Shown here one piece after another: positions 3,776 through 63,868 of a stretch of 64,000 nt of DNA; the first letter of the stretch is position 1, and the number at the start of each line of letters is the position of its first letter. The stretch covers positions 1,240,001-1,304,000 of the forward strand of contig PSQN01000006.1 of assembly GCA_002989075.1 (NCBI GenBank), read 5' to 3'. The notes under the pieces were generated by a model, which had not been told where the DNA came from, did no database searches, and was given only the letters and a program-made list of their open reading frames with translations. The translations under genes were made by a program, and so were the position numbers. The stretch comes from Arthonia radiata (Eukaryota; Ascomycota; Arthoniomycetes; Arthoniales; Arthoniaceae).

Positions 3776-4262
3776 TGCCGATATTGTCATTGCTGTCAGC
3801 TGAGCATGTGTGTGGGTTGAGGAATCTTTCACGTCCAAGGGGATACAGCTACGCCGGATCTTTGGCATCGTTACGACAGTCTTAGATACCAAATGGCTCT
3901 TACGTGCACGCTCGACCTCCAGCAGTCGTGCGTGTCAGGACAGCATGCCGATATTGTCATTACAGTCAGCAGAGCGTTCGTGTAGGTTGAGGAATCTTTC
4001 ACGTCCGAGGGGATACAGCTACGCCGGATCTTTGGCATCGCTACGACAGTACGTGATACCAAATTGATCTCATGAACACGCTCGACGTCCAGCAATTCTG
4101 CATGTCAGAAAAGCGTGCCGACATTGTCGTTACTGTCAGCAGAGCGTTTATGGAGGCTGAATAATACTGCAATCTCGGGGAATGCCAGCTACGCCGCCTC
4201 TCTGCCATCTCTGCGACAGTTCCAGATACTGAATTGCTCTTATGTATACGCTCGACATCCAC
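3776..4262. repeat. 170-bp tandem repeat, about 2.9 copies
   Basis: Three head-to-tail units begin with TGCCGATATTGTCAT-like sequence at 3776, 3946 and 4116, so the period is 170 bp each time. The block GGTTGAGGAATCTTTCACGTCC followed by GGGGATACAGCTACGCCGGA is nearly perfect between units 1 and 2 and more diverged in unit 3, which stops about 20 bp short. The unit length is not a multiple of three and no frame crosses all copies, so this is not a coding repeat. It sits in the intergenic space between an unknown gene and the channel gene, and could be a local satellite or a regulatory array. Confidence 0.85.
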
Positions 4263-31293: not shown

Positions 31294-32525
31294 TTACTCC
31301 AAAGGCTGCTCGAGCAAAGCCAGCACCATCTGATGATCCGGTTTCGGACTCGGAAACATGACAATGACGCGGCCAGCAACCGGCACAACGTCTAGCAGCG
31401 GCTGGATGACATTCTGCTCTATGATGATGCACGTCTCCCGAAGGCGCGGCAAGCACTCCACCTGGGACGGAGATGTCAGCACAGACCCTTCTGACATTCG
31501 CTCAGTTTTCAAACACAGTTTTGGGGCAGCACTAGCGCGATGGCTGCCTGACAAAAGATTTGATGCAACAGAAGGGGATATGTGGAGTCCCCAAGACTTA
31601 CTGGAGAAAACGCCACTTCTTCGAAGACATCAATATCTGATGCCGCAATCTTCTCGAGGTCGATCCTCTAAGCGAGCATGAAGATGCCATTCCCGAACGC
31701 CTGCGCAGCAATGTATGCTACTCTGCACTTCTTCACATCTTCTTCGATTTGAGCGCGCATGGCCTGCGCTGTGGCACTCGTGTCGTATGTGTTCGCATCG
31801 TGAACGACAACAAGTAGATACTCTACGATGCTAGTACTGAGACCGCGCTGTTGCGCGTTGATGCCGCGACCTAGGAGCTCAAGTTCGAACGGACTTCGCA
31901 ATCGGCGCAGAGCGCTCAGAGCCTCTAAGTAACTGGCATAGAACTCGGCTCGCTGGGCGAGGAGTTCAAGCTCACTGCCATTTTCTTGCATTGCTTGCAG
32001 GCGCTGTGCCTTCCAAGTCTCTGCCAAAAAGCGCGGTATACGAGGTAAGATTCGGTAAGAGACGTTCGCACGGTCAAAACGGTGAAAACCCGTCTCGTAT
32101 CGGGCTATAGCTCTGTCGAACATTTCGAAGCCACAATCCGTGAAGGCCTTCACCAAGAAAATGAGGATCTGGACTATGTGGCTTTGCTTGGACTGTGGTG
32201 TATTGTTGGCAAACATGTTGCTCACCACGAGCTCATGGGCTTCGTTTAGGAAGCGTTTGTGAAACGGAGTATCGAAGTCACTGCAAATATTCCGAATCGT
32301 CGAAAAGCTTGGGCTTGCCTGCTGCTCATTCGCATGATTGTCAATCGTGCTGTTTGACCGAGTTGAGGCATGAATAGTGGCGGGACCTGCAGGGTACGTT
32401 AGATCAATCCTAACTGACTGTGGAGTATCGCATATACCTGGTGATGATTGAACCAGTCCAAGCTGGGACATGGGCACTTCAATGTCCGGCCGAGAATTAT
32501 GAGAATCACTACGCTTTGGGGTCAT
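31294..32525 (-). pseudogene. Family P member 1 (unknown family flanking the repeat island), one in-frame stop
   Basis: Function unknown. Spliced model: 32438-32525, 31602-32386 and 31294-31461; introns are 51 bp (GTATAT...CTAAC...TGCAG) and 140 bp (GTAAGT...CCCAG). One TAG at 31668-31670 interrupts exon 2 after AFGNGIFMLA; the frame continues as RIDLEKIAASDIDVFEEV and then exon 3 VECLPRLRETCIIIE. CAG to TAG would be a typical RIP change. The protein is helical and soluble. It aligns with member 3 at 48107-50095 (TPFHKRFLNEAHEL with NPFHTHLYQAYLDV; RLRETCIIIEQNVI with RLARLCQLVDESVV), also past the stop, so the part after the stop was once translated. It lacks the N-terminal domain of members 2 and 3. 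It could instead be a functional shortened protein of about 268 residues. Confidence 0.55.
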
Positions 32526-33639
32526 GCTGGAAACGAAGTGTCAGCGCAGTTCCTTCTGAAGTTTGCTCCGGTTCCAGACAAAGCGTTTTGACACAACACC
32601 GGCGCGCTAGCTGCCGAACGGTGGCTTTTGAAGCATCGGAAAGAAATTTGTGGAGGCTCTAAGACTCACATGGTGGGTGTGGAACAGTGTAGCCGACTTG
32701 ACTAACACCCAGAATGAGCAGCTTGCTGAATAGGAGGTGTTCGGCTCTGTCGTTTTGAAAGTCCAGAGCCACCTCAATGACAAAAAGGATTGATATCTCC
32801 ACGCAGAGCAGTTGATTCGAACGAATAAACAAACTTCTTTTGGTTGTGTAGCTCGAGAGGACGAAGAGAGTGTGGTGCGCAAGATCCACACCCCCTCCTT
32901 TTTGTCGCCACGGATACCAGCCGTCGAATATGTACGCTAGTCTAGTCGAGGGCGCATGCCATCCCTGCATCAACAGAGTCACCGCCAATAGGAACGCACA
33001 GCGACAGTAACAGGCTTAAAAATGATCAATTAAGTGAACATGTTTCGACGTGCGTGAGGAGTGAGCCAGGTGCATCCACTGAGTCTGCATGTAGCATGTC
33101 ACAAGGTGGCTCTTTTATTCGATGCATGCTGGCAACTAGCACGTCAAATTGCAGGTGAAATGGAGCATCACTGGCTGAATGCCATACATGCATGCTTGGA
33201 CTATATTAACGGCAGAGTCAAGCTTTTGCAAGAGCATAATACCTCCTCAAAGTTGTGCATTGCCCTGGACAAATTGCGCTTGTTCAAGACCAGTCGTGAA
33301 CATCACAGCTTCGCACGACCCATAAGCACACTTGCAGAGCACTGCACAGAGCGACGTAATATGTGACTACTCTCCCCAGCACTGACACTGGCTCTTCACA
33401 GCTCCTGTGCTCGTCCAGTCAGAAACGTCGAAATAAGACACCGCCTCACGATCCATCGCCCGGACGTTGTGAAGATATTCCAGAGACCTCAGTCGCAACC
33501 CAGCTGGATCTTACCACTTGAGTCTCAGGCACGACTGAGCGAGTCTGCGAGCGCTGCGAATCGAGTACCGCAGTGCTACTTCCAGCTCCAGAGGCAAGCT
33601 CAGAGCTTTGTCGCGGGTTCTCCAAGGGAAAGTATAGTA
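32526..33639. other. Intergenic flank of the AT-rich island
   Basis: Ordinary base composition until about 33635, then an abrupt change. No gene is supported; the 80-110-codon frames here lack splice or domain support. Confidence 0.4.
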
Positions 33640-36600
33640 AGAATCTTACTAACTTTATCTCTATAAAAGATTATCTACTAGAAATCTTTATAAATAGGGT
33701 TCATAGACAGAAGAACGTTATAAAAATAGAAATTATAATAATTATAATTAATGTCTATAGAATTTATAAGAATTTTACTATCTATAACGTTTTTTATATC
33801 CTAGATATTCGATTTAATCTACTTTTTTGTAAATAATTAGCTCTCTATATAGTTTAGTTAGAATTTTATATATAGTACTATAAAATTTAATAAAAAAATA
33901 GCAACTAGATTGTTATCTATAGTACTAGTACTGGCGTTAATAATCTCTATAAGCTTACTAAATATATAAGCTCTACTTCTACTTTTACTATTTCTACTTC
34001 TATTATAGTAAAAGCTAGTATAATTAACTAGAACGTTAAATTAATAGAGCTTTAATACTAAAGACTCGGTTATCTAAATAAGCGTATACTTAAGTAATTA
34101 TTAAAGGTCGCTAATAAAATAACTCTTAGTTATAATACCCTTAATATTTATAAGTTTTATTGTATTATAAAGTAAAATCGATAGAATAAATCTATGTTTA
34201 TATAATACTACGCTATAAAACCGCTTAAAAGAATCTATATTAACTTTAGTAGCTCTTATTTATTATTATACTACAGAGATTAATGTTTTCTTAGTATTAT
34301 AAATAATTACTTCTAAATATACTTTATCTTCTTTTTAAAGTTAAAAGATAAAGCTTTCTAATAGATTTAGGTCTTTTAAAATTATAAAGAAAAGTAAATT
34401 AAGCAAATTTTTAAGATTATTTATAGCAATAATAGTAGTAAATTTATAAGCGGTCGGTTTTAGGCGTTTTTAAATAATAATAGTATTATTTAAGAATTAA
34501 CTATATTATATAATTCTAAGTAAAATAGTATAATAGAAAAAGATATATATATTCTCTAAAATAAAGCTAAAGTAATTTTATATAATATAGCTCTTAATAA
34601 AAGGCTATAGTTAGAACTAATACGCTCTAAAGTATATTTTTAAATATTAGCCTTATCTCTACTTTAAAAGGAGTTACGCTATACTAGAAATACTATAATA
34701 AGCAATTAAATATCTTTTATCTTTACATTCTTAAATATATTAGCTATAAGATAGTACTACGTAAAAAGCTATCTAAAATAAGTTTTGAAAATAATAAATA
34801 TATACTTTTAGGCTATAATAGAATAAATTCATAGTATATATTTAACCTTATATTTTACTATATAGAGACTATACGTTACGTCTAATTTAATAAACTTTAA
34901 GACTTCTATAGTAACGTTTAGCCGAATATTAACGTTAATACTAAAAAACTTCTCTCTAACTTATAGCTTATAGACAATAAAAATTCTATATAAACTATCT
35001 TGGAGAAACTTCTACTACGCCTATTAATATTGGTAGAGGTCTCTACTAAAAGATACCTTAGTATATATATTAAGCCTACTAAAAACTATTTAGATATCTC
35101 TACTAAAGAAACGCTTTAGTATCTATCTTAAGTTTACTAAGAACCGTCTAAGTATCTAAACTTAATTCTATAGCTTATCTAAAGGTCTCTCTATTAGTTA
35201 CTATACCGCTATATTTTAAGGTAGGTAATATCTATAGAATAGTATAAAGGTCTCTATAGCTAAAATTAAGGCTAAAATTAAGTATACTGTTAAGCAAGTT
35301 ATTAATAACTCTTCTTCTCTATACTATAACGAGACTTAAGCAGCTACTATTCTTTTAATTATTACTAAGGCCTATTAATAATATATAGAGTAAGTAGTTT
35401 TAGCCGATTCTAACAACTATCTATATAACAAATCTATAATATTTTAGTAAGTAATAGCTAAACTATAAGTATAGAAATAATTTAAAACAATAACAAAAAA
35501 AGTTAACTTAATTAATAATAACTAGATATAGAATATTATTAATAAATCTCTTTATTAAGCTACGTTCTATAAAAAATAGATCCTTTAAAGTAAAAAGAAA
35601 TAAAGACGGTCTTATATAGTAATATAAAGTCTAATAGATTATTTAAAGATTTAAATAAAAGTATAGTATTAACTTTAATAAGACCTTTATAGTAGTTATA
35701 AAGCCTATAACCTATAAATCTTTTGTTATAGTTATAAATCTATTTAACTAGAATATTAAATAAATAAATATAAAAATAGTATTTTTTTATATTAAACTTT
35801 CTAGTCTCTCTAGCTAAGCTAACCTCTTTAGTAAGGTTTATAAACTATAGAAGGCTCTTTATAGTCTTAAGTAAGTACTATACGTTTAAAACTAGACGCT
35901 TATAGACTTTCTTATATAATAAGGCTACTATCTACTTACTAACAATAAGAGTGTCTTTTAGAATAGCGTAAAGAATATATTTATTATAGTTTATATTAAT
36001 AATCTTTTGCTTACTAGAGTAGATAAAGAAGAAATTTTTTAGCTTAAAACTACTTTTAAATTTTAAGTTTAAAATATTTAATCTTAGCTTAGTCTCCTAC
36101 TATTTAGATATTAAAGTTTTTTATATTAGGTTAATTTATAAACTTTAACTTAGTTAGAAGATATATATATAGAAGATTATTATAGACTTTAGCTTTAATA
36201 GTCTTAAAACTTAAAAAACGCTAATAAATTCTAATAAGAAACTTAAATCTCTCTCTTTTAAATATAAAGCTCTAAATAATCTAAAAATAAAGTACTAGTC
36301 TGCCGTTAGCTTTCTTATATATCTTATGTTTAGAATATATCTTAATATTATCTACGCTGTCTTATAAGTCTCTTAGTTTAGTATTAATTCTATAGATTAT
36401 TACTAGATAGCCATTTAGTATATCTTTTACTATATTAAAGATACGGCCGGCTATAGACTTATTTATTAGAAAGAAGGGTTTAAGACCTATACTAACGCTA
36501 ACTAGGCAATAGAAACCGACCGTAAATCTACTAAAGAGTATATCTTTTAGCTAGAAGGGGCTACTATTTCTTAGTACTTAAAGTACTAGTAAACAGTTAT

Positions 36601-36990
36601 GCTCTTTAGTACCGAGTTAGAGTATATAGTCTATATAGAAGTAGAAAAAGAGGCTAATTAGCTTTAGCGACTACTTAAGAGTATAGAATACCTAGTTAAT
36701 TACGTTAACTTATAGTATAATAACTAGAGCGCTATTAATATTTTCTATAATCTATAGTATTATACTTGTATAAAGTATATTAATCTATAATAGTACTAGA
36801 TACAGAATAAGATTAACGCTAGTAATATTAAGATTATATATCTATCTATTAATTATTAAGTTACTAATAGCCTTATAAAGTCCCTTAATATTAGTAAGTA
36901 ATAGACCTTTATTAAAGACCTTAGCCTTTAGTAGGTTTAACTATCTAATTTAAAAGTTACTTATACTATTTTAGAGAGGACTGTAAATAT
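33640..36990 (+). mobile_element. Ty1/copia LTR retrotransposon, heavily decayed fossil
   Basis: Family Ty1/copia on the plus strand. Traces of the reverse transcriptase active-site region are recognisable at about 35950-36020, followed by the copia-type RNase H region at about 36390-36740; reverse transcriptase directly followed by RNase H at the 3' end is the copia order. The element is broken many times over by RIP-type change and cannot be active. The outer limits are approximate: the left one is set by the composition border, the right one by the end of the RNase H trace. No terminal repeats could be paired with confidence. Confidence 0.7.
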
Positions 36991-38112
36991 ATATAAGCGT
37001 ATATATATATAGAGAGGCTCTCTATAATCGCTTATATCTCTGTTTATTAGTTACTTTACGCTAACTAGAGTTTTTAGAGTATATATACTTACTACTATGC
37101 CCTCTTATAGTTAATTAACGCTAACTTTATTTAAATCCTTCTACTGCTAAGATTTTCTAAAATAGAACCTTATATAGTTAACTTTAGCTTCCTCTCTTTA
37201 AGTGTCCTTCTTAGATTTACTAATAAAGACAATTATAATAGTAATAACTCTTTACTACGTAATGAATAGTAACTGTAGCTAAATCTAGTAGCGTTTTGTT
37301 TTAACTACGTAAATACCTTACTATCGCTAGTATTAATACTTCTCTTAAGAGAGCTTTTTATTAGAAACTCTCTAGATTACTTAAATCTATTAGAATCGAA
37401 CTAATCTTAATTATAATATATTTATAAACTCTAAAACTAGGTAGCTATATACTAGTATTCGTAATTTAAATACCTCTAGTTACTACTAATAGATATTATA
37501 GCTCTTCTATACCCTACTAGTTCTTTCTCTCTTAATAGCAATTAGATTACGTGTCTTTACGCTCTATAAGCTAGTTTAGACTCTTATATTTACCCTTAGA
37601 TTATTATTTAACCTAGTACTACAAGTAAGACTAAATAGAAGTCTCTAACTTAATTCTATAACTATAATATATAGAAGTAATTTCTTAAAGCTAATAAGCT
37701 CTTAGATATTTATACTTAATATACTATTATATTATAAATATTTAAATATAAAACTTAGCTATAATAAACTATAAAATTTAATACTACTCTAACTAGTATT
37801 AATAGGCGGTTATAATTATATATACTAGTACTACTATATAGAGTATTTATCTTATTATCTTTAATATTAATTTATACGCTCTACTTGCTAAGAATAGGTA
37901 TATAAGAATTACTACTATTTAAACTTAAAATTTTATAGATTTTATTTGTAGAAAGTCTATAAAGATATAGTACTAAAACGTTATAGAGATTTAGCTTTAT
38001 AGCTTCTTTCTTAGCATAGATAGCTATCTTTTAAGTACTAACCTTTAGCTTTATAATATAGTTACGTAGCGTATTAATAAATTCTTTAATAGTAAAGGTC
38101 TTAAAGAATATC

Positions 38113-38587
38113 TTTATTACGGACATTAGCCTTAGACGGCCTAGCGCACGCTTAAGTATTAAATATTACTAGTTATCTTAGTTTTACTAGTATTATTTCT
38201 AACTAAACCTATAAACCTACTATAGATATTATCGAACAAAATAGCTAAGAGGGCCTATATTCTTTATAAACCCGCTATAAGTATTATTAAAATTAATAGA
38301 TATAAAGAAACTCTCTTATATATCTTAAACTATATAGCTAAATTAATAATTAACCTTAAAATAAACTTTAGTTTATTAATTTAATATTTAAATATAAGTT
38401 TTTTAACTATATTTCAGTAACGTACTTTATTTTCTGTTTACTTTAAGTTAAGCTTCTCTTATCTTTTATAATCTGTTTCGCCTCTCCTACCTTTTAGTCT
38501 CTAGTATATAAGATACTTACTACTAAGGTCGATAAGTATATAAGGTAAGTAAGCCTTAGTTCGATTCTTCTAGCGATCGGCGTTACA
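38113..38587. mobile_element. LTR-like arm, left copy (475 bp), RIP-mutated fossil
   Basis: A 475-bp sequence that is the reverse complement of the right arm at 38791-39778 once the nested element there is removed; both arms are then the same length. The ends correspond to TG...CA in the better preserved arm. This copy is the more mutated one. The two copies are separated by 203 bp. Confidence 0.75.
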
Positions 38588-38790
38588 ATCTTAATATAAA
38601 CTACTAGCGTTAGCTTTTCTAAGCCTAATAGTTTAAGTTATATAGCGTTTTAATATAGCTATATAAACTTTAATCTCTCTCTAGCGTTTTTTTAATTAAT
38701 TAGCTACTATTATAGAGGAGTTTATAGTATAGCTATATATATAAATACTTAAAGGCTACTTTCTTTTATCTTAAATATCTATTAACAACT

Positions 38791-39778
38791 TGTAACGCCG
38801 GTCGCTAGGAGAACTAAACTAAGGCTTACTTATCTTATATACTTATCGACCTTAGTAGTAAGTATTTTGTATGCTAGAGACTAAAAGGTAGGAGAGGCGA
38901 GACAGATTATAGAAGGTAAGAGGAGCTTAACTTAAAGTAGATAGAAGGTAAAGTACGTTACTTTGTTAAAAAGGGTGCAGGGAAGAAGAAGGATACTACT
39001 ACAAAGAGTAGGAAGACGAGACTAGCTTGGGACTAGTGCAATACTTAGGCTTGTTACAGGTACAATACTCAGTAACAAAGAGAAGCTGTTGTTGTATTGC
39101 CTGTCTTGTTAGCTAGAATCCTCTAGAGAGATTCTAGCTTATATATCTAAGTCTAGCGGCCCGTACAGGACTAAATAGATATCTGTTCTTTTGATAGGGG
39201 CCAGATAACCCGTAACTTACCGTACAAGACAGTAATTCCGTCTATCTAAAACTGTTAGTCTCTAAATCTATTCCGTGTTGTCTTAGACTACGGGCCAGCT
39301 GTCTAGGACGGGTCGTACAATGCTCCTTTTTGACCTAGGCCCGGGCTACTAGGCCCGACCCTTTAGGTAAAAGGCTTGTTCTATTCTAGGCCGAGACAGC
39401 TGGTAGGACCTGTCCGATACTCCGGGCCCCTGGGGGTTCCGGCTAACCAGCTAGTTGGTTAATTTCCAACATACTTAAATATAGTTAAAAAACTTATATT
39501 TAAATATTAAATTAACAGACTAAAGTCTATTCTAAGGTCAGCTATTAGTTTAGCTATATAGTTTAAGATACATAGGAGAGTTTCTCTGTATCTGTTAATT
39601 TTAATAATACCTATAGTAGGTTTATAAGGAACGTAGGCCTTCTTAGCCGTCTTGTCCGATAATATCTATAGCGAGTTTATAGGTTTAGTCGGGAATAATG
39701 CTGGTAGGGCTGAGATAACTAGTGGTGGTTGATGCTTAGACGTGCGCTAGGCCGTCTAAGGCTGGTGTCCGTAATACA
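38791..39778. mobile_element. LTR-like arm, right copy, with nested solo LTR
   Basis: Begins TGTAACGCCG and ends CCGTAATACA, so it has TG...CA termini. It is 988 bp long including the nested 508-bp element and its 5-bp target duplication, leaving 475 bp, the length of the left arm. It is less mutated than the left arm. No target-site duplication was found around this arm. It is best read as an LTR of an old retrotransposon, inverted relative to its partner. Confidence 0.75.
38964..39471. mobile_element. Solo LTR (508 bp) with 5-bp target duplication TACTT
   Basis: The element starts TGTTAAAAAGG and ends TTTCCAACA and is flanked on both sides by TACTT, a 5-bp duplication. The empty site is visible in the partner arm (reverse complement of about 38410-38430), where the sequence runs through without this element. 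Base composition is much less AT-rich than the surroundings, so it arrived after most of the mutation had happened, or escaped it. No internal coding region is present. It looks whole as an LTR. Confidence 0.8.
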
Positions 39779-40520
39779 ACTACTATCTTTACTATAGTAG
39801 TATTATTATTACTAGTTCTTTAGTAGTAAGAAACCTTATTTACTTTCTTTTCTTACTTATTGAATAACTAGCGCTTAACTTTTAGTTTTAATTTTCTATT
39901 TATACCTATAAAGAAGATATAACTACTATTCTTACTAATTTTTTTAAGACTTTTAACTATTTTAAAATTTATAGCTATAATATTAATACTTTAAATCTTT
40001 GTACTCTAACCTAGTAGATTACTAGCAACTATACCTTTAGGTACTATAATAACTATCTTCTTTAATATCTACTACTCTTTCTTATTTTTATTTTGATTAA
40101 GACGTAGCGGTTAGACTTTTTTATTTATCCACTACTAAGGTTTTTTATTTATAAACGCTCTTTTTATAAATTAAGAGAGTTATAGTTTAAAAAAAGAAAG
40201 AAAACAATTAGAAACTAGAGTATCTTTTATATTATTAGTAGTAATAACGCTATTAGTAATAATAATAGCTTATCTCCTTTAAGATAATTCTTAGAGTAAG
40301 AAATTACTTTAAGTTATTTAATAAAGAACGTATACTCTATCCCTTTAATAGAGATAGTAAGCCCTTATTAAAAGAGATATTATAATAAAAAGGGTATATA
40401 CCCTTATTAAAGGGGGTATCAAAATATTTTTGGTGTAACCTTATATTGCTACCTTGCTACCTAGCATCTATTATATATATAGAGGGCTCTATCCCTCCTC
40501 TAGTACTATACTGAATTTAA

Positions 40521-42080
40521 TTATGGATTACTCCACGTTAGGCGCCTCTCGACCCAGCAAGCTGCAGATGCGTTTGAAGATTTCGACGCCAGCTGAGGAG
40601 TTTGCGCGAGGCCGATTTGGGCTCTGGGTTTGAGGACCAGGAAAATGCCGCTTGTGAAAGTTATGCGCATCATTTCTACTGCCTTGGCCTCATTCAGTAC
40701 GGCCGTGAATTGTAATCGACTTTTTTTGATCTCTGCAGGGCCCCCAGCCAGATCGATGCCTTCAGCCACCCAGAGATAGTAGTACTTCACGACAACCTCA
40801 AGGCCACGTCCCTGTCCGGTTTTGAGGTATGCAGGGTATGTGACTGCTGCCTCAGCGATGTCTTGAGACAGACTGCTGTCTTCATTTTCGGCCTCTTCGA
40901 CGAGTTGTGAGAATTTTGTGTGGAGACGGACAAGACATTTGTACTGAATGAAGTCCGCAAGCTCTTTCTCAAAGCGGCTAGACGTGACCTGGTGGTAGGC
41001 TGAATGTACTTCTCGGATATAAAGGTCTGTAGCCCTTGTGGTTGGACTCGTCACGCTTGGCAGGCTTCTGTTCTGTGACACGTATTGATCCATGACCTTG
41101 AGACCGTGATTTAGACCTGTGTCGATGAACGCGTGAAAAAGGTATTTCAAGTTTTGGTGGATGAGCAAAAGAATGTTGTTCTTCTCCTTCATGTTCGCTG
41201 ACGCAGGGATGGCTTCATCGGTCACAATCTTGAACACTTTCGCAAACTCGCCTGGGAGATACCGATGCAAACTTGTCGAAATACTGTCGCATTCTCTGCG
41301 AGCTTGTTGGAGATGTGGCCACTCCGAATCCGACGTGTGCACCGCTTGTTCAGACCCAGTACGGTGGCGTTGGGACGTGGACGCAGAGACAGAAGCATCA
41401 AGGAGCGTACGTCGTCGCTTGCGACGGATAGTGCTCTGCGTTCTGCTCACGGAGCTCCGATTCGAGGCTTGCGGGGTGGACTCGCTGCTTTCTCGAGTTG
41501 TAGGTGCTCGACTTCGTCTGTCTTGTTCTTCGGCTTCTGTCGATGGAGCTGCGCCTTGACTTTCGTTAGCCAAAACGCCGTGCAAGGTTGTAAACGAATG
41601 CTTACTCGAAATGTTGAGCACGTCGTCCAATGCCGTTGCCACATCAAGGTGTCGCTCAGCTGACCAAGTTGATGAGATGCGACGAGCAAACTTGCTGAAG
41701 CATGGGAGAATGTCTTCGTGGATTCCAAAGGGGCCACTAAGTAGTTCCATCAGTGTGGTGACTGTAAGAAGTTCTTCGTCGTCCAAGTTGGGGAGCGCAC
41801 AGAGGACTTTCAGACTCTGCACGATAGTTGCGATCTTGTTCGACATTGTGTCTTCATTGTAGCCCTCCTTTTTCCACCTCTCTGAAACGTCCGCCATGAC
41901 TTTACCAAGGTATGATCTGGTTCTGGCAGGCCGATCAGAGGAGCTGTCGCTACGGTGTGGACTGAGTTCGGACCAAGCTTTGTAGCTGGCGTGCTGCACT
42001 TGTATTCGATCCATCACTTCACGCGCTCTCTGTTCCTGATCTAAAGGCATGCCCCACTCGTCGCGCTCAATTGCACACAA
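40521..42080 (-). CDS. Family P member 2 (519 aa), 3' end at the repeat-island border
   Basis: Function unknown; single frame from MCAIERDEWGMPLDQ to a stop at 40521-40523, which lies exactly at the island border. N-terminal helical domain (about 65-150) with the block KIATIVQSLKVLCALPNLDD, which aligns with member 3 (KSIHVIQNLICHMKGLIDDM); a basic, Ser-rich, disordered middle (about 180-250, with RRKRRR, a possible nuclear signal); and a helical C-terminal domain (about 270-480) with HQNLKYLFHAFIDTGLNHGL and FTSGIFLVL, shared with members 1 and 3. The region that members 1 and 3 have after this point is missing, so the gene was probably cut short by insertion of the island, and the last residues come from the junction. 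No signal peptide or membrane helix is seen. Confidence 0.7.
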   Translation of the reverse strand: MCAIERDEWGMPLDQEQRAREVMDRIQVQHASYKAWSELSPHRSDSSSDRPARTRSYLGKVMADVSERWKKEGYNEDTMSNKIATIVQSLKVLCALPNLDDEELLTVTTLMELLSGPFGIHEDILPCFSKFARRISSTWSAERHLDVATALDDVLNISSKHSFTTLHGVLANESQGAAPSTEAEEQDRRSRAPTTRESSESTPQASNRSSVSRTQSTIRRKRRRTLLDASVSASTSQRHRTGSEQAVHTSDSEWPHLQQARRECDSISTSLHRYLPGEFAKVFKIVTDEAIPASANMKEKNNILLLIHQNLKYLFHAFIDTGLNHGLKVMDQYVSQNRSLPSVTSPTTRATDLYIREVHSAYHQVTSSRFEKELADFIQYKCLVRLHTKFSQLVEEAENEDSSLSQDIAEAAVTYPAYLKTGQGRGLEVVVKYYYLWVAEGIDLAGGPAEIKKSRLQFTAVLNEAKAVEMMRITFTSGIFLVLKPRAQIGLAQTPQLASKSSNASAACWVERRLTWSNP

Positions 42081-43588
42081 GTGCTGAATAATTCTCGATA
42101 TCAGGGAAGGGAATTGATGATAATAACAGTTATGGCCTCGAGGTAAAGCACCCAGGCAGCTGTGGAGAGCTATGAGGTGTTGTGACTAATGGAGAGATTT
42201 TCAAGTCCCTAGTTGCGAGCGAACAAACGAACCGTCCACTTCAACCTGCAAAAAATTCACGGGATGGGGAGGCTCAACATTGAAGAAGAGAGCATCCCGG
42301 AGCAAAACAAAGACACAAACATTGAGCTGAATAGGGGAGACCGCCATTACAGTAATTGTGGCAGTGATTATAGCGCCGTCGCAACCGTATATGTTGAGAA
42401 AACTCTTGCAGAAGTCACAAAGGTGATCTAATTGAGCGTTGACACAAGGCTTCGGGCGCGAAGACCACAGACCTGATTGTAGATTTGACAAGGAATCCGC
42501 AGTCCTCATTCTTAAGTTCCATGACATGTGAGAAGCAGTATTGATCCTGTGAGTGCCAGCAAAGGCTACATTGCGCAAAAAAGCGCTCTATTTTATTTGT
42601 TGCATGAACAGAGATAAAGTGGTCTTTCTATACACTGATACGGATCGACCAAAGCGGATAGAGCTCTCGCGTTGCTAAAAGCTCGAACGAAGCCTTTGAA
42701 CCGGCCACACAGATTGGTATTGCGACCTTTGCATCGGACAAAGGAGCTCAAATCTCGCCGTGGACAGCACTTGCAATGCCAGGTATGCTGCATGCACGCA
42801 TGCATACACCATATCACGTGTGCGCCGGTCAGACAACAAGAAACCAACCCGAGGAGCACGGTAGTGCGCAACCCACTATCTTGTTCTCTCGCACGCTAGC
42901 ATTGCTTGACGGACCTTGACATCTTCTTCATTGCTGCAGAGGGTGGCTAAAACACGTGATATATGCGGAGAAACTTTTCTGCGATTAAATCTTTCGTTGC
43001 CGGTCTGGACAAGCCGATGCTCGATGCGCGTGGACCGCTATGTGGATGGAGAACCTTTTTGTTGAAGGCTGGATTACTCAGAGCATGCTCGATCAACTTG
43101 GTATATGGACAATCTTTCTGTAATCGCTTTTTGCTGACTTATGATATCAAGACATAGCGCAACGACAATTTTGTTTCCTAGCGTGCAGCACCGACGTACT
43201 ACAAACAGCGAAGATGGCCGCTGCGGTGCTCTCACATGGCCAAAGAAGCGGACGTCCACGCCCAGGCGGATGCGCGCACGTCGCTCGAAGGACAAGTCTC
43301 TGATTCGACGAGCAGCAAGAGCGACACTGCATGATGTTCATGTGCTTCCTTCTTTTCATTATTGCGCGGAATTCCGACGTACTCCTGCCATTTGAAAAAG
43401 AAAGACGAAGAATCTTCAAGGGACGGGGTTGCAGACTGGGCGACTACCTGTTCTAAAACATCGTTTGATGGTAATATACAGTATGCTTTAGTGTTAGGTG
43501 CTGAATTACCCGATTCAGTGGCTTGGTAACGATTCAGTGGCTTGGTAATGTCTGATGGTAGTCGGCTCGAGACTGCAGAGATGATGGT
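42081..43588. other. Gene-poor stretch
   Basis: Upstream of family P member 2. No gene, repeat or domain is recognised; base composition is moderate. Confidence 0.4.
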
Positions 43589-44059
43589 TCAGTAGCGTGA
43601 AAGTGCCGGACGATGCACATCGTCCTGGGCGAATGAACCCGTTGTTGGACATTCCCAGTAGTTAAGGTCGTCCAAAATCGGCCAGGGACCATATGAGACC
43701 TTTTCTTTCAGACTTTCAGTGATCATGAGCGATGCCTGATCGACTATAAGGTATTGGGGTTGGATGAGCGAGTCGAGGTAGCCTTGGTGACGGCAGAAGG
43801 TGCTTTGCTGCCTGTCGTAAGCTCCAGAGTAAGTTGAGCCCGTCTCAACCAAGGTGGTCCCCAAAGTAGACTTATGGGGGGCTGTAAAAAGGGAAGTACT
43901 TGAAATGAGGGGGAAGCACGAAATGACACCGAGAACCAGAACTGTCAAGACTTCGCGTAGCGGCGTTTTGCGCGAAGCAGGGTCTGTGCAGTGTTCACGC
44001 GACAGTCTGAAAATACCTGAAGCAGACTGTCGGGGCCACAATCCTACTGCACAAAGCAA
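43589..44059 (-). CDS. Possible hypothetical protein (up to 156 aa)
   Basis: An open frame in a gene-poor stretch. It contains a hydrophobic run (VLTVLVLGVISCFPLISS, about 39-56) that could be a signal or membrane segment, then a protein-like C-terminus with QGYLDSLIQPQYLIVDQ and YGPWPILDDLNYWECP. The 38 residues before the hydrophobic run are unusual for a secreted protein, so a first exon may be wrong or missing. A CTTATAGG TATA-like site lies only about 30 bp upstream of the ATG. No family is recognised; it could be a chance frame. Confidence 0.3.
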   Translation of the reverse strand: MLCAVGLWPRQSASGIFRLSREHCTDPASRKTPLREVLTVLVLGVISCFPLISSTSLFTAPHKSTLGTTLVETGSTYSGAYDRQQSTFCRHQGYLDSLIQPQYLIVDQASLMITESLKEKVSYGPWPILDDLNYWECPTTGSFAQDDVHRPALSRY

Positions 44060-46803
44060 TTCTTCCGCGCGCTGAGGTCAGTAGAGTCCTATAAGAGTAC
44101 CTATTCGTACAAGCGTCATATGGTGGAGTGGAAGAGAGGTAAAGATAAGTGATGCAAGCCATATGTAAAGCAAAGCTTGAATTTCAAAGCCGAAAAACAC
44201 GAAATTGCCGGACAAGAAAGGATGAGGACGTGAGAGAAGTTACGAACCGCACAGGTCGGAACAACTAAGCTCCGGGGATGGTCGGATTGGTGTTGCAGCA
44301 GCGCAGCGACTCGCAAATATCACAATCAGATGAGAACTTTGGATTGTCACCCGTGTACGGATGTATGCATGCAGTGGCTATTCAGGACGGTATTCGCTCT
44401 ATGCTGTTACATCTGAGCGACAAGCTTTATCATCTCTAGTTATAGGGTGCATGGAATGGAAAGACGTCGACACACCAATGAACCTCAACTGGCATCTTCA
44501 AAGGCTGATACGCCGTCTAACACTTACGATGGCAGCCACCAGATATGTCACGAGCTTGTAAGCGGTTGCCGCAATAAAGAGATGTGCCAGTGGACTGGCG
44601 GATAAGGAATGGATTTCCGGGCGAAATCCCCCGTAAATACATACTTGCCGGAGTGGGCTCCGCCAGAGGGCTGAGCATTGACGTTCTACGTTATTTACGC
44701 CTAATTGCACATTCTCTTTGGAGGCCATCACGTTGGTCCATAATTTACCGCTCGCGTGAGACCAATCTAGCACTTCTAGTCCTAACATCTTCTCCAGAAT
44801 CCCCGCTCCAGATAGATTCTTTTGTGATGTACTAAGGTCTTCGGATATCGTTCCGGCAGCAGATCAGCGACCGATGGATCAAGTAACACTTGAACGGGTC
44901 GCCAAATTTGCTGTACGAGATCGTACACGCTGCTTGAGAAATGTATCACCAGAGAACATAAGCGCAGCCCCGATGCAAGAGCGTGAAACCAGCGAAATTG
45001 GCCCAAGTTTTCAAGATGTGGTTCAGTCTTTCGATCAAGACGCGACAAATCAAATATTAACCTACAGTTATTAATTGCCTATTATGGCATCTGAGTATGT
45101 AGGCAAGCGACTGATCCGTGCAAGCGCGTGGCGCAAATGTATCTCAGTTGCAAGAACCGAAATCCTTCTCAGACCTCACATTTGTCTACCTTTTGACTCT
45201 GTAACATTATGACATACGCAAACAATTTTGGAACAAATCACAACGATACAGACGTAGCCTCGTCCTGGACTCAGCCCTTTCTCATCCTGACGGTCGTGGC
45301 TGCTGGTTGATGCTAGCTTCCAAAGCCATTCATCGTTCGAGTCTGCTTTCGATTGCCAGCTTTGGACCGAGCTTCAGAAAGATTATTGCTAGGCATTGGG
45401 CGTCAACACTCCCTCCTGTGGCTCTGTCCTGGCCAGCGTCACCCCTCCGGGCTACTGTCACCGGTACCATGATTGTGCTTCAGGCCGCTGGGCCGAAGTA
45501 ACAAGCATGCTGGATCCTCAAGCGGCTGTTCATCCCCCAGTTCAATGTCTGATGGCGGACGGAAAGAGTCAAGAGCTACAAATAAATCAAATATCAACAT
45601 ACTGCTATGATCGCATCTATTTGGTCGCACATTCTTGGCTTCTGCATAGTGGTCCTATGATTAGGCGATGGACACACCTGTGAAATCAAGGTGTGGGTGC
45701 GCCGGCTTGTTTGGTACTGTCAGTCAAGATCTTGTTGAGTCAACCATCGACTCATTGCTTGTGCATGCACATAGTATCCGTGCGCATTCAGCCTCTGTTC
45801 ATTTCCCTACACCACGCCAGCGGCGCTTTCGGAGTGACGAGAAGGGCAAGACCTGAAGATACAAATGAGCTTTGCTGCACGCCTACAGTCCCTGATACGG
45901 CTTTCTCGCTCGTAGAGATGCTCCGAATGGCCGCATGTGCAATACAGCAGCTCAAAAAATTAGCACACGGATTTGTAGCTGACGGCAAGTACCTGAGCGC
46001 GCATCACGCGACGTTCAGGTTTTCGCGTACTTGGGCGCACCGGTGAATGCTTCGGTGCGAACACTATGGACCATTCTACAACTGACTCAATAGCGCTGCA
46101 GCACATTGAAAACACGTGAAGCTATGGATAAGACGTGACTAAGGGGTAGACTCATGAACGACCAAAGAGGAGAAAAAATGACGCGCTGCAGACCGTAAGC
46201 GGCCATTTTTCTGGAGCGGATGTACATCCACCGTTATGGCTCCCTGAGGTAAATTTTCACACATGATCGCGGTCCTCATTGGAGTACAAAGAAGCTGTTC
46301 CATTTGGTCGCTTCAAGTTGTGGGAGCTGCTTGGAACGAGGGTTCTAGCAATACATATGATTCAAAGTGAAGTACCATATCAGCTTGCTTCGAAGCATGT
46401 GTAAACAAGTTGGTGCTTGTTGTCCAAGCAAGAAAAAAGGGCGCGTGGCTCTCGTCCGTCCAAGCCAGTGCTCGTATTAACAATGTGCTCTGCCAGCTCC
46501 TTGGGAGCACGTCATGGGCTTATTATCTCGACAGGTGCATTCGTCACTGGCCGTTTCGACGTCTTCATGCAAATCTAGCAGCTGCGTTACGTCGACCGTG
46601 GTTTCTTGGAATCGCGGAGAGAGCGTCGGGAAGAATGGGTTGCACTGGGGAGTCTGATTTGGACTCAAATTGGCTATTATATTCTGTTTGCACTACTTGC
46701 AAATTGGTGGTGATTATGGTGGTGTGCTAGTTTTATTGTTACCCGCATGACCATCATGGCGCCATAAGGTTATCGTTTTGGGCCACTCGGCCTCTGCTAA
46801 CGC
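44060..46803. other. Gene-poor stretch between a weak ORF and the telomere-like tract
   Basis: 2.7 kb without a convincing gene. Frames such as 44782-45048 (minus) and 45396-45683 (plus) have somewhat protein-like composition but no domain, signal or splice support and may be relics. Confidence 0.4.
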
Positions 46804-46925
46804 GACACCCTAACTTCAACCCTAATACCACGCTGCACCCCAACCCTAACCCTTTCGACCCCAGTACCTACCCTAGCCCTAACCCAAACCCGACGTGAAG
46901 CCCTAACCCAAGCTCAGACCCTATC
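46804..46925. repeat. Degenerate interstitial telomeric repeat (CCCTAA/TTAGGG)
   Basis: Five exact CCCTAA units (46808, 46820, 46844, 46878 and 46901) plus variants such as CCCTAG (46871), AACCCAAACCC and ACCCCAACCC occur within 120 bp. TTAGGG is the telomere repeat of most filamentous ascomycetes. The C-rich strand reads 5' to 3' on the plus strand, as it would at the left end of a chromosome. The tract is clearly mutated, so it is old. It lies in the gene-poor stretch between family P members 2 and 3. Confidence 0.8.
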
Positions 46926-48106
46926 CATCGGACTTCATGTCAAACAATATTATTATATTTACGTTCAAATAATATCTCCTCTCAATTCTCAATCTTCCAG
47001 CACAATAAGATTTATATTCGGACTAGCAAGCAAATGCGTAGCGAGGCGCATAGCTTCGCTGCATCTATGGCCTGGAGTCCTTCCGTCCTCAGTCCTACGT
47101 GTTTCCAAGAAGCGCCGCTGTAAAAGACTGGCGACAATATCTCCATGGCCTTCGAAGACTTCCAATCTTCAATCGAGGCATCATATATGGAGAGAAGTCG
47201 ATGTGCTGCAGGACCTTCATATTCAGGAGCTGATCCATCTCGTTATAGGCAATCACCCTGGGTCCCGAACGCGAAGGCGGCAGTCTCTTGCCTTCTTCAA
47301 TCGACAACATAGATGGGTGAAAGGCAAACCTATTAAACCGGAAGAGGAGACACTTCATGACATACAGACTCCGCCGCGCGCGCAATCATGAGTGTACAAT
47401 GGGAATGCCGGCCGGACGAACATACGATGTCTTTGACAGGTGCCAGCTACGCGCCTACCCTTAAACCGCTTTTGTATGGCCATGCGACAACAACAATTCC
47501 ACCCCGAATTACGCCGCAGCCTAGCATCCCCTGCACAAGTACTAGAGAGGATGTGGACTGCTTCACTCGATGAATCCAACCGAATGGAATGGCGGCCACG
47601 CGCAATTTGGATAAGCATATGAATATCATGGCACTTAATTTCCGTCACCAAAATTCACCAGTATCCTCATTTTGCATGATTCACCCCGAAAAACTTGGAG
47701 GATCGGCAGACAAATTGAAGAGACAAGAAAACACTGAAGCAATCAGTCGGGGCTCGTAGACAGTCTCGTTGCGCGTTTTCAATCATCATCAGACAGCTAG
47801 CTCAATGCCTTGTATGCTACGGTCATGCCTGATACCTGCAAACCCGAGGAGAAGCCGCTAGAAAACGCGTTCAGCGTTCTCCGCTTTTTGTCTTCTCACT
47901 CAAGTTGTCAATCATAGATGGGTTGAACACGTATACTGATTGACCTTTGTTATTTTTTCGCATAGTCTGCCATCGCACTAAGCCGAACGCTCTCAATTCC
48001 AGCACGCACCGTTGCATACACAGCACGTCGAGACCGCGAGACCGCGAAACCAAACCCGCTGAGTCACTTCCACTTTGACGGCGCAGACATTCATACTGAC
48101 ACGATA
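46926..48106. other. Gene-poor stretch upstream of family P member 3
   Basis: Nothing is recognised between the telomere-like tract and the start of member 3; it holds the promoter of that gene. Confidence 0.4.
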
Positions 48107-50095
48107 ATGGCTGATAGCTCGCTTCCCGGTCCGATCCCTTCTTTGCCATCGTCGTCCGTGCTGCGGAACGCCGATACCATCGAAGAATGTGGGGAACAGC
48201 ACCGCGCCATGTCCTCCCACTCACAGCCGCACGAGACGTCAGATCTTTTGCCGTGCATAGCGACCATTTGCCAGCGGGCAGCGTCGCTCTCAGCGCACGA
48301 TGCACGCAAGAAAAGCATCCACGTCATTCAAAATCTGATATGTCATATGAAGGGTCTCATAGACGACATGGACGAAGGAGATCTAAAAGGCTTGCAAGAG
48401 ATTTGCAATGACATCAAGACAGGTATCAGCATTGACGTAGTCCTGAGTCAGCTGTGTGAAGTGGCTGCACTATTACAAAGCCACAGCGATGAGACCTCAC
48501 AGGTGTCCCCGCTCGGAACATCCTGCCTACGTTATGCTGATGACGACGCGATGGTTATCGATCAGCCAATCATTGACCGCATCAGCGACGTAGATGACAG
48601 CACCAGCAATGATGACATCGTTGGCGGCGTTGCTATGATGTCGGGTGCAATCCAGCGAACTGCGGACCTGAGGGTTGCTGTTCAAATACCTGGACTGAAG
48701 CAGCGCGCGACTCTGAACATATCTCAAATGGAAGAGACGGCTTCAGCTACGAGTGGCAAGGGCTCACGATGTCCCGACTTGGAGCATGCGATGTCAACGA
48801 GCGCCGCCACAGTTCTACCTCTCACGTTTACAGGCGCGCTTCTTCCCACTATATGTCAGATGTTTGCACGATACCACAATCCGTTCCACACTCATCTTTA
48901 CCAAGCCTACCTAGACGTCCGTGAAAAGGCAACCGTAGAGCTCTGAAGTGAAGGATTTCGCATCGACGACAAGACATCATTGCAGATCGACGAAAACCTT
49001 GTATGGTGGGCTGAAACTTTCTCGAGGATTGGTCTCCAGCGAGCGCAGGACCTCATAGCAGAATATCAGTCACACGAACACTCTGCAGCGACTTCCGATG
49101 CATCTCATCCGCATCAGGCAGATATGGAAGGCCGGGTCCAGCTGGCGGTCACCGCCTGGAAACAGATCAAGAATGACGTCGGCAGCAACCACGCTGACTT
49201 CTTCAATTATGGTGTGAAGCAAGCCCGCTTCTATGACCATTACTCGGCCCTCCTTGAAGAGGCTCGAAACGGAGGCTCCAAGCTTTCCGCAGAGATCTAC
49301 CGTCTATTTGCGAACATCGGGAGGGGCCGGAATCGCACCGTCGACGGGAGATTGAAACTGTATTTTCTTTATCTACTAGGTTTCATCCACCTGGACCAAC
49401 CAGAGAAGTGGGGAGAGAAGCGTGCATATTTCACAAACCAGCTCAGATCCGCGAGAATAGTGCATCGTACCTCCAATACCTTGGGCCTTGGAGTGCTTTT
49501 GTTTTCCAGAAGACGAGGGTATGAAACGATTGCTATGAAGCATGAAGGCGTCGCCAATTGCATCTGCGCCTTGCTCAATACACACATCCCACGACTCGCT
49601 CGACTATGCCAGCTCGTTGACGAGAGCGTCGTGAAGCGGATGGCGGCAGGGCAACCGCTCCCAGCAGACATAATCGATCATGCTGAGAAGCATGTGCTTT
49701 TCACCGACGGCTATTTCCAGCATCACGAGCAGCTGCACGCGCCAGCAGATGCGACAGAACTTGAGACAGCCCAGAACGTCTCTGACTTTAGACGCCGGAT
49801 ACGCGTCAACGTCCGACAACGCGGCATCTGCGCATGGCCGTTGCGTGTCTTGATGCAAGAAGATGACGTAACGTTCAACGCCGTCACAGGCAAAGGCACG
49901 ATCGGCCAACATCCAGGCGAATGCGGCTGTGCGAGATTCAAGCCGCCAGCCATGCAAAGAGCTTGCTTGCTCGACTTTATGAATCTCGGGGATCTTAGTT
50001 TGTTATCTATTCTGGTTCGAACATCTCAAGAGACGATCTATGCTGCGAAGCAGCACATAATGCTCTTCGCTGCTCACAATCTCATTTTTGGGTAA
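48107..50095 (+). pseudogene. Family P member 3 (about 662 codons), one in-frame stop
   Basis: Function unknown. One frame runs from MADSSLPGPIPSLP (48107) to 50095 and is interrupted only by TGA at 48944-48946, after REKATVEL; the frame continues SEGFRIDDKTSLQIDENL. The N-terminal helical domain (about 55-130) aligns with member 2, and the C-terminal domain aligns with members 1 and 2 (DENLVWWAETFSRIGLQRAQ; TNTLGLGVLLFS-like end). It alone keeps the long C-terminal extension (about 480-662), with ADIIDHAEKHVLFTDGYF and GECGCARFKPP. TGG to TGA would be a RIP-type change. No signal peptide or membrane segment is seen. If the stop is real, a 279-residue N-terminal protein would remain; recoding or a sequence error cannot be excluded. 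Confidence 0.6.
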
Positions 50096-57352: not shown

Positions 57353-58957
57353 ATGTCTTCAGTAGCTTTACCAGCACTACACCCTGGTCCGCGGGGCGGG
57401 TCACCACCACCCGATCCACCACCAATCCCGCCACCGCGTCCGATCGCGCCGCGCCCGCCATCGCCCAGCCCACCGTCGCCTGGCCCGCCATCGCCCACTA
57501 AAACCAGTCCAGCTGGGCTTCTGGCTATTAGCGGCTCGGATATGTCTCCGCGGCTACCTTCACCTATCCCAGACCAACCGCCGCGTCCGCGCACGCCAAC
57601 GTCTGACCCATCCAGAACCGATTCCACAGTCTCATATGTGCTGAGCTCGTCCCACGACACGAGCAATACTGTTGTCCAGGGCACCGGCCCAGAGCCCACT
57701 CCTCAACCGCCGCCTTCACCACCACCAGGGCCAGCACCACGTCCAGGGACGCCTCGTCCACCAGTCCCCAGCCCACCCGGACCTGATGCGTCGGTACTGT
57801 CTGTGAAACGCTCATCGCAAGGCAGTTCGAAGCATACTGTCTCCGGCGTATCGAATGGCGGTCTTATCGTCGACGGCACTGTTGCCTTCGCCATCCCGTC
57901 ACCTCCGCCGCCCACTCCACCACTTACTCCAGTACCTGACCATCCGCGTCCAGTCAGCCCGCTCACCCTGCGCCCTTTATCTCTCGCTGAAGCCAGTCGA
58001 GCTGGATGCCTAGACAATATGCCGTCACCACCGCCTTTACCACCGCCATCCCCGGACCAGCCTCCGATTCCGGATCCACGTCCGCCTACGCCGCGTCCCC
58101 TCACGCCGCCTTCTCAGCCTAGGCCGGAGACGAGCCCAGTAGCACAGAGCGATGGACCGGCGTGTGCTAGGGGTAGACCCCGCACTCACTTGTTGAGATC
58201 TGTACCGGGCCTCCCACCCAACTCAGCGGACGATGCGGACATGCGCAGCATCACGCAAGTGGGTGTGGGTGCTGGGACGATCTGGCTTGCTGATGATGAT
58301 CAGGACCCAGGAAAGGGCAAGAGCTCTCCTCCACCGGAGCCACCAAAGCCACAGCCGCCGCCACCATACCCTACTCAGCGAGGTGTTGGAGTGATCATGC
58401 TCAGCGATGATCAAGATCCAGGCAAGGGCAAGAGCTCGCCTCCACCGGAGCCACCAAAGCCAAAGCCGCCGCCGCCATATCCTACTCAGCGAGGCATCGG
58501 CATTGATATGTTCAGCGACGACCAAGATCCAAGAAAGGGCAAGAGCTCTCCACCGACGCCACCGCCCAAGCCGAAGACGCCGCCGCCATATCCGACACAG
58601 CGACTGGTCTACATTCATGGTCCATACCCTTCACCGCCACCGACGCGACCGGGATCGCCGCCGCCGAGGCCACCAACACCGCCACCCACGCCGCCTCCTG
58701 GCCACCACGCTCATGTCGATGATTTAGTGGACAAGCACGAAGATTCGGAGCCTGAGCCTGCGAGACCGAAGCCTCCACCAGAGCCCCTCCCGGATCTGCC
58801 GCGCCCCGACAGCCCGCAGGGTCCTCGTCCAGACTTCTTCGTTTTAGGAAGTGATCACGAGAAGTGGACGCTTGAGCAAGCATACGACAGTCGAAAGCCG
58901 GCACACGGCGGCAGCACTACTAGTGTGTGGACGTCGCCGTATCTGCTGGTCACCTGA
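57353..58957 (+). CDS. Proline-rich, disordered protein with internal repeats (534 aa)
   Basis: Function unknown. The start is MSSVALPALHPGPRGG (57353), right after a predicted leader intron; the open frame extends upstream to 57149, but that part lies within introns. The protein is mostly PPP, SPPxP, PRPPxP and similar polyproline runs separated by short Ser/Asp-rich blocks, so it should be unstructured and full of SH3/WW-type ligand motifs. Three 37-residue repeats beginning DDQDPGKGKSSPPPEPPKP occur in the C-terminal third. The last 100 residues are less repetitive, ending TTSVWTSPYLLVT. No signal peptide or membrane helix is seen. A 62-bp intron with a GCTAAC branch (58967-59028) seems to lie in the 3' UTR. 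Several long antisense frames here are shadows of the proline codons. Confidence 0.7.
   Translation: MSSVALPALHPGPRGGSPPPDPPPIPPPRPIAPRPPSPSPPSPGPPSPTKTSPAGLLAISGSDMSPRLPSPIPDQPPRPRTPTSDPSRTDSTVSYVLSSSHDTSNTVVQGTGPEPTPQPPPSPPPGPAPRPGTPRPPVPSPPGPDASVLSVKRSSQGSSKHTVSGVSNGGLIVDGTVAFAIPSPPPPTPPLTPVPDHPRPVSPLTLRPLSLAEASRAGCLDNMPSPPPLPPPSPDQPPIPDPRPPTPRPLTPPSQPRPETSPVAQSDGPACARGRPRTHLLRSVPGLPPNSADDADMRSITQVGVGAGTIWLADDDQDPGKGKSSPPPEPPKPQPPPPYPTQRGVGVIMLSDDQDPGKGKSSPPPEPPKPKPPPPYPTQRGIGIDMFSDDQDPRKGKSSPPTPPPKPKTPPPYPTQRLVYIHGPYPSPPPTRPGSPPPRPPTPPPTPPPGHHAHVDDLVDKHEDSEPEPARPKPPPEPLPDLPRPDSPQGPRPDFFVLGSDHEKWTLEQAYDSRKPAHGGSTTSVWTSPYLLVT
58292..58612 (+). repeat. 111-bp coding tandem repeat, three units
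   Basis: Units beginning near 58295, 58406 and 58517 share GATCA(A/G)GA(C/T)CCAGG...AAGGGCAAGAGCTC and CCATA(C/T)CCTACTCAGCGAGG. The period is 111 bp (37 codons). Units 1 and 2 are the closest; unit 3 is more diverged in its second half. The repeat lies inside the proline-rich gene and preserves its frame. Confidence 0.85.
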
Positions 58958-62441: not shown

Positions 62442-63868
62442 ATGAACTCTTTGAAGCGCAAGCGCTCCGAAACGGAGCTCCAAAATGAGGATTCAGACAC
62501 GTTTACAGAGACCCAGCAAGCTCTGACCGAGAAGAACTTGGAAGAGCACACCCAATTATCGAGCGGACGAAGGTCGAGCAGCGGCGGCATGCCAAAGATG
62601 TCCTCTTCCTCGAAGAAGTCTGGCACCGGCGCCTCCGATTCAAACCGCAGCGAGACACCCACAAGCATAGACAGTGCGGCTCGAACGCTCGAAAAGTATT
62701 GCATCTACCATGATAGTGGAGCCAGCATGCCCAAAGGTAAGCGCACTGCAGTCCTGCTACGAACTTGCAAGCGTCTGCTCGATATGGAGGCTCTCTGACT
62801 GCTCCAAACTAGTCCTCGTGGACTTCATTGCAAGCATTACCTCGTTCAGGGAAGGCACCCCCTCACCCCAATCGCTAAAGGTCGCAATGTCGAACAAGAA
62901 AACCATGTTCATGTCCGAAGCTCAGCAAATACACGACCTTGAAGAACACCTTGGCTACAAGCCTGAGCTAAAAGGAGGCGAAAAGCATATCGCCCGTGAG
63001 CAGGACCGCCGCTGGCACAAAGAGGCCTTTCCCAATATTGATCCCTACGAGCCGAACGAGGAAATCAGGGAGGTAAGCCGAAGAGCATCCCCTCATTACA
63101 TACTGTGCTTTCGGAGCTATGGTCGGGCAGCGCGCGCCGGCCTTGTCCCACAATGCCTTGTTTGATCTCGAACTCCGGAAGGGGCTGTGTTGACGTCTTG
63201 TTTACAGGCTTACGCCAAAGAACCTCCGGCTCCCTCACCGGCTCCCGACGTTGAATACGGTCACACCGAGACTGCGTTCACTGACCAAGAGCTCAAGATC
63301 ATTAAGCACGTCCTGCCGAAGGAGTGCTGTGTTTATCCAGGCGAGCCGTTCTTCCCTTTCTGGTGCAACCAATGGAAGAGTGAGGCAAAATTCGGCAACA
63401 TGTTGAAAGCAAACATGCAAGCATTGAGGGATGGCGCAGCTGCAGTCTATTCACTCTGGGAACTCTACCAGTCTAGGAATGTCACATCTACGGCGGCAGA
63501 TACTGCAGGTAAGCTTTTTTTCTCCTAAGTCAGGACTCGAGTGGGACTAAGATAGTATGAAAGCATTCACGTCCTGCGTTGATGGACGGCACATCGAGAT
63601 ACGTGTCCACTGGCGCAGCTATAGCGAGGGAAAGTCAGGCTCTAATGATCGACCGTCCCTCTCGTGGGAATGCGCCTTGATCGCTAGTGCCAGGCTGAGC
63701 AATGAGCAGGAAGTGTACCAGGTTAGAGGCGTCATCTACAAAATTCTTGACTGGGCAAGGGATGTACGCCTTCTGGCTATCAAAAACCTGTCGCAGATGA
63801 AACAACGCCAGCCAACATCATCACAGGCATCTGCGGGGTCGAAGCGGAAAGGCGATTTCCGTGAGTAA
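62442..63868 (+). CDS. Unknown fungal protein resembling the DUF7924 group (390 aa)
   Basis: Four exons: 62442-62736, 62813-63072, 63208-63508 and 63552-63868; introns 76, 135 and 43 bp, all starting GTAAGC. The start is MNSLKRKRSETELQ. Layout: a basic and Ser-rich disordered N-terminus (1-95, with KRKR, a possible nuclear signal), a middle with AREQDRRWHKEAFPNIDPYE, and a folded C-terminal half with FFPFWCNQWKSEAKFGNM, QALRDGAAAVYSLWELY and GRHIEIRVHWRSYSEG. The FF-PF-x-x-x-E-K core followed by an Ala-rich helix and a short HIEIRVHW strand is what I recall of fungal DUF7924 proteins, which resemble nuclease-like folds and are often expanded near repeats; this assignment is tentative. The end at 63868 is the first stop; the window ends 132 bp later. 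Confidence 0.6.

Follow-up and report, generated by a model that had tools for sequence, protein, structure and literature searches.

A putatively decaying cluster of three diverged paralogues beside a RIP-mutated island in Arthonia radiata

What are the three protein-like genes that surround an island of mutated repeats in the genome of the ascomycete Arthonia radiata, and are they still under constraint? They lie in a window of 64,000 nt (bases 1,240,001-1,304,000 of contig PSQN01000006.1, forward strand) of the 33.5 Mb, 16-contig assembly GCA_002989075.1, and an earlier note on this window had taken them for diverged members of an undescribed family with signs of fast evolution, as in subtelomeric or recognition families. 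With a probability of roughly 55%, we read members 1, 2 and 3 (M1, M2 and M3) as an old, locally duplicated cluster of paralogues encoding mostly helical proteins, which is decaying beside the debris of repeat-induced point mutation (RIP).

The three genes were found at the places described before, and they are indeed the only sizeable ones in a gene-poor stretch: between the end of an amidohydrolase gene (29586) and the start of EAF7 (51636), the only open reading frames (ORFs) of more than 156 aa lying wholly inside belong to the trio. Homology was assessed by Smith-Waterman alignment against shuffled sequences (1000 unless stated otherwise) with both BLOSUM62 and BLOSUM45, using as controls ten window ORFs outside the locus, eight with and two without a Pfam match. 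The C-terminal block of M2 aligned with that of M3b, the part of M3 behind an in-frame stop codon, at z scores of 13.4-14.0, and M1 aligned with M3b at 7.4-8.7, while four member pieces reached at most 2.2 against the ten control ORFs and all 85 control pairs stayed at or below 3.2. M2 and M3, and M1 and M3, thus have homologous cores, so that for these pairs the claim of shared C-terminal blocks stands. BLASTP gave E values of 1e-4 for M1-M3b and 3e-4 for M2-M3b, and for M1-M2 merely 13 non-collinear residues at 0.075. Over the full length, M1 and M2 scored z 3.5 with BLOSUM62 (9 of 1000 shuffles as high) and 5.4 with BLOSUM45 (1 of 1000), the latter alignment being collinear along nearly the whole of M1.

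Identities over aligned positions ranged from 18 to 26% (M1-M2, 59/278; M2-M3b, 57/218; M1-M3b, 32/173), which may reflect age as much as speed of evolution. When 2001 sequences were searched with a two-row profile of M2 and M3, the whole-sequence score placed M1 at the top (E 0.048), only just ahead of the best shuffle (0.054), whereas the best-domain score did not. Genome-wide searches linked M2 and M3b (E 1.6e-5 and 2.7e-5); the search with M1 gave no link to either. As judged from these alignments, M1 joins the family mainly through its link to M3. The N-terminal domain that the earlier note proposed for both M2 and M3 was not significant, as 86 and 286 of 1000 shuffles scored as high, and 59 and 64 of 1000 when the N-terminal parts alone were compared.

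Inspection of the reading frames revealed that two of the three gene extents proposed before, 31294-32525 and 48107-50095, are correct in place but are not single open frames. M1 is open on the minus strand from 31671 to 32525 (285 aa from ATG to an in-frame TAG), the best sense frame by coding score, and its shared core covers about residues 115-285 by alignment. The TAG (31668-31670, minus strand) closes the frame directly after this core, roughly where the similarity between M2 and M3 runs out. Beyond it lies a tail (31294-31667, minus strand) of 22 codons, an introner-like intron of 140 nt (31462-31601, GTAAGT...CAG) that is predicted to be spliced, and 55 codons up to a TAA (31294), so that the proposed extent crosses both the stop and the intron. 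The last exon of M1 resembled the tail of M3b, with a score that 2 and 3 of 1000 shuffles reached; compared to M2, 129 and 101 of 1000 shuffles scored as high. A 54-nt stretch ending at the TAG was considered as an intron and set aside by eye, as its removal would delete sequence that apparently aligns with the other members.

M3, on the plus strand, consists of M3a (48107-48943, 279 aa), an in-frame TGA (48944-48946) crossed by the proposed extent, and M3b (48947-50092), which has 382 open codons and comprises, besides the shared core, a longer tail. An in-frame GT..AG intron of 51 nt containing the TGA was likewise rejected by eye, having a poor-looking donor and removing apparently aligning sequence. 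Programmed readthrough and RNA editing of the two stops were considered too, but are not claimed. Between the last part of M3a and M1 ahead of the stop, a similarity was no more than suggestive (142 and 114 of 2000 shuffles as high), and none was detected between this part of M3a and M2 (785 and 411 of 2000). M2 (40521-42050, minus strand) is open over 509 aa from its first ATG without an internal stop. A frameshift near the end of M2 is not claimed, the short match of another frame to the M3 tail being equalled by 57 of 1000 shuffles. Nor do we claim a likeness between the last 72 residues of M2 in its own frame and the last exon of M1 (20 of 1000 shuffles as high), because part of this non-collinear alignment falls within the M2 core.

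The stop of M2 at 40521 coincides with the edge of the AT-rich island, a point that had escaped the earlier note. Both the island at about 33.5-40.5 kb and its RIP character were recovered as described there. In rows of 250 bases, the island (33500-40520) has TA/AT ratios of 1.35-2.64 and a GC content of mostly 18-35%, and (CA+TG)/(AC+GT) is at most 0.38 in 24 of the 28 rows; the remaining four correspond to the left edge (0.90) and to a repeat resembling a long terminal repeat (LTR; 0.52-0.64). Outside the island, between 29.5 and 51.7 kb, the two ratios are 0.27-1.8 and 0.86-1.9, respectively. This dinucleotide pattern is a RIP signature, and high TpA/ApT, low (CpA+TpG)/(ApC+GpT), low GC and a dispersed LTR-like repeat are shared with RIP-mutated transposon islands, with no difference noticed. 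The LTR-like repeat of about 508 bp (38964-39471) occurs at 39 further places at 93-96% identity among the best 40 of 1095 candidates scored, and nine pairs of these copies share a strand at a distance of about 4.8 kb, an LTR-like spacing. It sits inside the older RIP island, and its flanks match each other in inverted orientation.

The codon signal of the trio was evaluated with frequencies trained on eight long window ORFs outside the locus, two of which overlap on opposite strands, so that at least one of these two is probably not a gene. Own-frame scores of the five large pieces were between -0.043 and -0.025, compared to -0.19 to -0.36 for the two remaining sense frames and to 0.15 and 0.20 for control genes that were both part of the training set. 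The large pieces had a GC content at third codon positions of 0.54-0.59, below that of two neighbouring genes (0.74 and 0.70) and above that of two intergenic stretches (0.47 and 0.48). The three members therefore look like weakly codon-biased genes rather than chance frames. The two pieces of the M1 tail, which are short, scored 0.12 and 0.18, best in their own frame. As the tail also resembles that of M3, it was probably once coding.

When single proteins were searched against the entire genome at E<=10, matches came from this locus only, and the genome-wide check suggested in the earlier note thus produced no further copies; the search is heuristic and scores candidates only, so that very distant copies may escape it. 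Weak candidates for extra members in the gene-poor stretch were not significant (best E 0.09 with M2 and 0.24 with the profile). In Pfam, the three members gave only chance-level matches far under the cut-off (E 0.096 and 0.14), and the last exon of M1 gave no match. PDB searches with phmmer at E<=1 returned nothing for M2 and M3b, and a three-row profile found one engineered protein at E 0.07, which is no clear relative. Against viral and prokaryote contigs, 193 and 99 pattern matches were obtained, none of which was confirmed by tblastn, and phage records contained no match to M2. Within Pfam, PDB and these contigs the family is accordingly undescribed, as had been proposed; relatives in other fungi may exist.

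Two AlphaFold models computed from three-row alignments were mostly helical but of very low confidence, with mean predicted local distance difference test (pLDDT) values of 41.0 and 36.5. Models of such low pLDDT are too poor for use, and fold matches obtained with them would be meaningless. No signal peptide was apparent by eye and hydropathy, and the shared cores contained no strong hydrophobic segment by hydropathy. We regard the proteins as probably mostly helical and intracellular, acting most plausibly via protein contacts, and M2 might be nuclear, as a basic cluster, RRKRRR at residue 209, could indicate.

We propose that three old paralogues arose by local duplication, probably within one fungal lineage to which they would be restricted, and that the locus is losing constraint, M1 and M3 each containing a single stop and M2 ending at a nest of RIP-mutated transposon debris. 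The in-frame stops and the position of the M2 end at the island edge point to loss of constraint rather than to fast evolution or recognition. This probably reflects decay and not working genes that end early. Several observations weigh against this reading. In a gene long dead, lesions should be numerous, whereas M1 and M3 have a single stop each and M2 has none; moreover, the three genes show no RIP signature. M1, with 285 aa that span the core completely, may like M2 be a working gene that ends early, and the stops could be assembly errors. The M1-M2 cores alone, for which a shared block had also been claimed, reach z 3.0-3.2 (14 and 9 of 1000 shuffles), no better than the top control pair. 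The coding evidence is uneven as well: one antisense frame of the M3b core ties with the sense frame (-0.039) and one of the M3b tail (-0.003) beats it (-0.033), stops being present within both antisense frames. For the N half of M2 by itself, the score is -0.092, near that of a 156-codon ORF taken for chance (-0.112). Finally, borderline hydrophobic segments in the tails of M1 and M3 (19-residue hydropathy means of 1.75 and 1.67, close to the value of 1.6 at which membrane segments are customarily called) make an intracellular, soluble place of the proteins less than secure.

The strongest competitor, which we nevertheless regard as clearly less probable than decay, holds that M1 and M2 are functional genes with products terminating at the core, that only M3 or only the tails were lost, and that the family is active and evolving fast. 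In its favour, the entire core fits within the M1 frame, which closes near the point where the similarity between M2 and M3 gives out; M2 remains open over 509 codons, and the codon signal persists. However, the tail past the M1 TAG still has its highest coding score in its own frame and is similar to the tail of M3, and it was thus probably coding.

It is unlikely that the trio represents remnants of mobile-element proteins from an element otherwise erased by RIP. The genes do surround a RIP island with a dispersed LTR-like repeat, but the protein searches found no second copy of any member in the genome, and when M1, the only member searched as DNA, was used as query, matches elsewhere were confined to its introner. 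Moreover, the 6 kb between M2 and M3 are unique, with no further match in the genome, Pfam, applied to the three proteins, detected no transposon domain in them, and the genes themselves are free of the RIP signature that marks the island. We give just as little credit to the idea that the stops are assembly or consensus errors in intact genes, an explanation compatible with other functional readings. A single stop per gene inside otherwise long open frames is what such errors would look like; for two of them to have arisen independently inside 17 kb would be bad luck in an assembly of 16 contigs.

We consider it very improbable that the trio forms a family for self-recognition, heterokaryon incompatibility or spore killing: orphan paralogues that are diverged and clustered, with some of them broken and LTR repeats close by, would fit it by analogy, but no HET, NACHT or other incompatibility domain was found in the three proteins by Pfam at E<=1, and the sole match in the genome to a mating-type (MAT) alpha-box gene lies on another contig and not at the trio locus. 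Its most specific form, a single-locus orphan self-recognition or gamete-killing family with a helical fold that has no described relative and with broken members as leavings of turnover, would draw on the same analogy and is scarcely to be expected; a recognition or killing function finds no measured support in this one locus of one genome.

The setting of the locus is in keeping with an ordinary chromosome interior. The host contig comprises 2,188,936 bases and the trio lies about 0.9 Mb from its nearer end, so that the subtelomeric position suggested earlier does not apply. The flanking genes are ordinary: on the left a Peroxidase_2-like frame, slightly below the Pfam cut-off, and the amidohydrolase gene, and on the right EAF7, a zinc alcohol dehydrogenase-type gene and a thiamin pyrophosphokinase. 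RNA genes were not found by Rfam at its cut-offs between 29.5 and 51.7 kb, and the whole window contains no tRNA gene. The CCCTAA tract noticed before between M2 and M3 (46808-46912, plus strand) was recovered as a degenerate, telomere-like sequence with five CCCTAA in about 100 bp. A two-unit telomere pattern with at most two mismatches matched seven times in the window, five of them in the tract, against 3.1 expected in all, and a count of seven was reached by 4 of 100 shuffles. The tract is interstitial, of a single orientation and far from the contig ends. Elsewhere in the window, a long minus-strand ORF (4691-7324) with a mechanosensitive-channel domain overlaps another long ORF on the plus strand (4826-6526), which has no significant match. 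Tandem repeats occur at 3776-4261 (period 170 bases) and at 58295-58603 (period 111 bases), the latter inside a 598-codon ORF without a Pfam match.

M1 carries two introner-like introns, which are a feature of this gene and not of the protein family. Besides the intron in its tail, a second one of 143 nt (32527-32669, minus strand, GTGAGT...CAG; splicing predicted) lies just upstream of the ATG, and the two are 69% identical over 131 positions. The M1 introner copy has 20 further matches with GT..AG ends in the genome, and a second search returned 50 rows, including the query's own place, from the best 40 of 107 candidates scored. A third copy of this GT..AG family of about 140 nt is located at 63073-63207, and all three window copies stand singly. 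They fold no better than shuffled sequences (z -1.04, 1.53 and 0.43). Similar introns with GT..AG ends in many genome places have also been described from Dothideomycetes as introner-like elements (ILEs; PMC4457414), and in that paper some ILE-bearing genes are marked as likely pseudogenes for an in-frame stop. Introner-like introns, RIP signatures and the alpha-box mating-type gene on another contig all point to a filamentous ascomycete.

Unlike the elements described in the consulted part of PMC4457414, many copies here abut head to tail. Among 27 loci fetched for having matches, 19 with a two-copy query and eight with the single M1 copy, 13 contained at least two copies of the same direction within 25 nt, and 11 at least two exactly abutting copies with a zero-length exon between them, four in a row at one locus. 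Arrays were found at 9 of the 19 loci obtained with the two-copy query, which favours arrays, and at 4 of the 8 obtained with the single copy. AG/GT was present at 14 of the 16 junctions printed. Insertion of introners at AG/G sites, of which the end of a previous introner is one, would be expected to produce abutting copies. The portions consulted of PMC4457414, PMC8469720 and PMC9860276 contain no description of head-to-tail introner arrays. These stacked introners with zero-length exons may be more interesting than the trio itself, as the arrays make preferential insertion at earlier introner ends and splicing across zero-length exons testable.

The trio resembles orphan fungal gene families in general, which have no recognised domain, few paralogues and weak codon bias and lie near transposon debris. 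It differs from them in being chromosome-internal and confined to a single locus, and its own restriction to one lineage is a probable rather than an observed trait. The analysis corrects gene extents that crossed two stop codons. If our reading is right, the locus would add another uncharacterised fungal protein family to domain libraries and would illustrate the loss of constraint in a cluster of paralogues beside RIP-mutated transposon debris.

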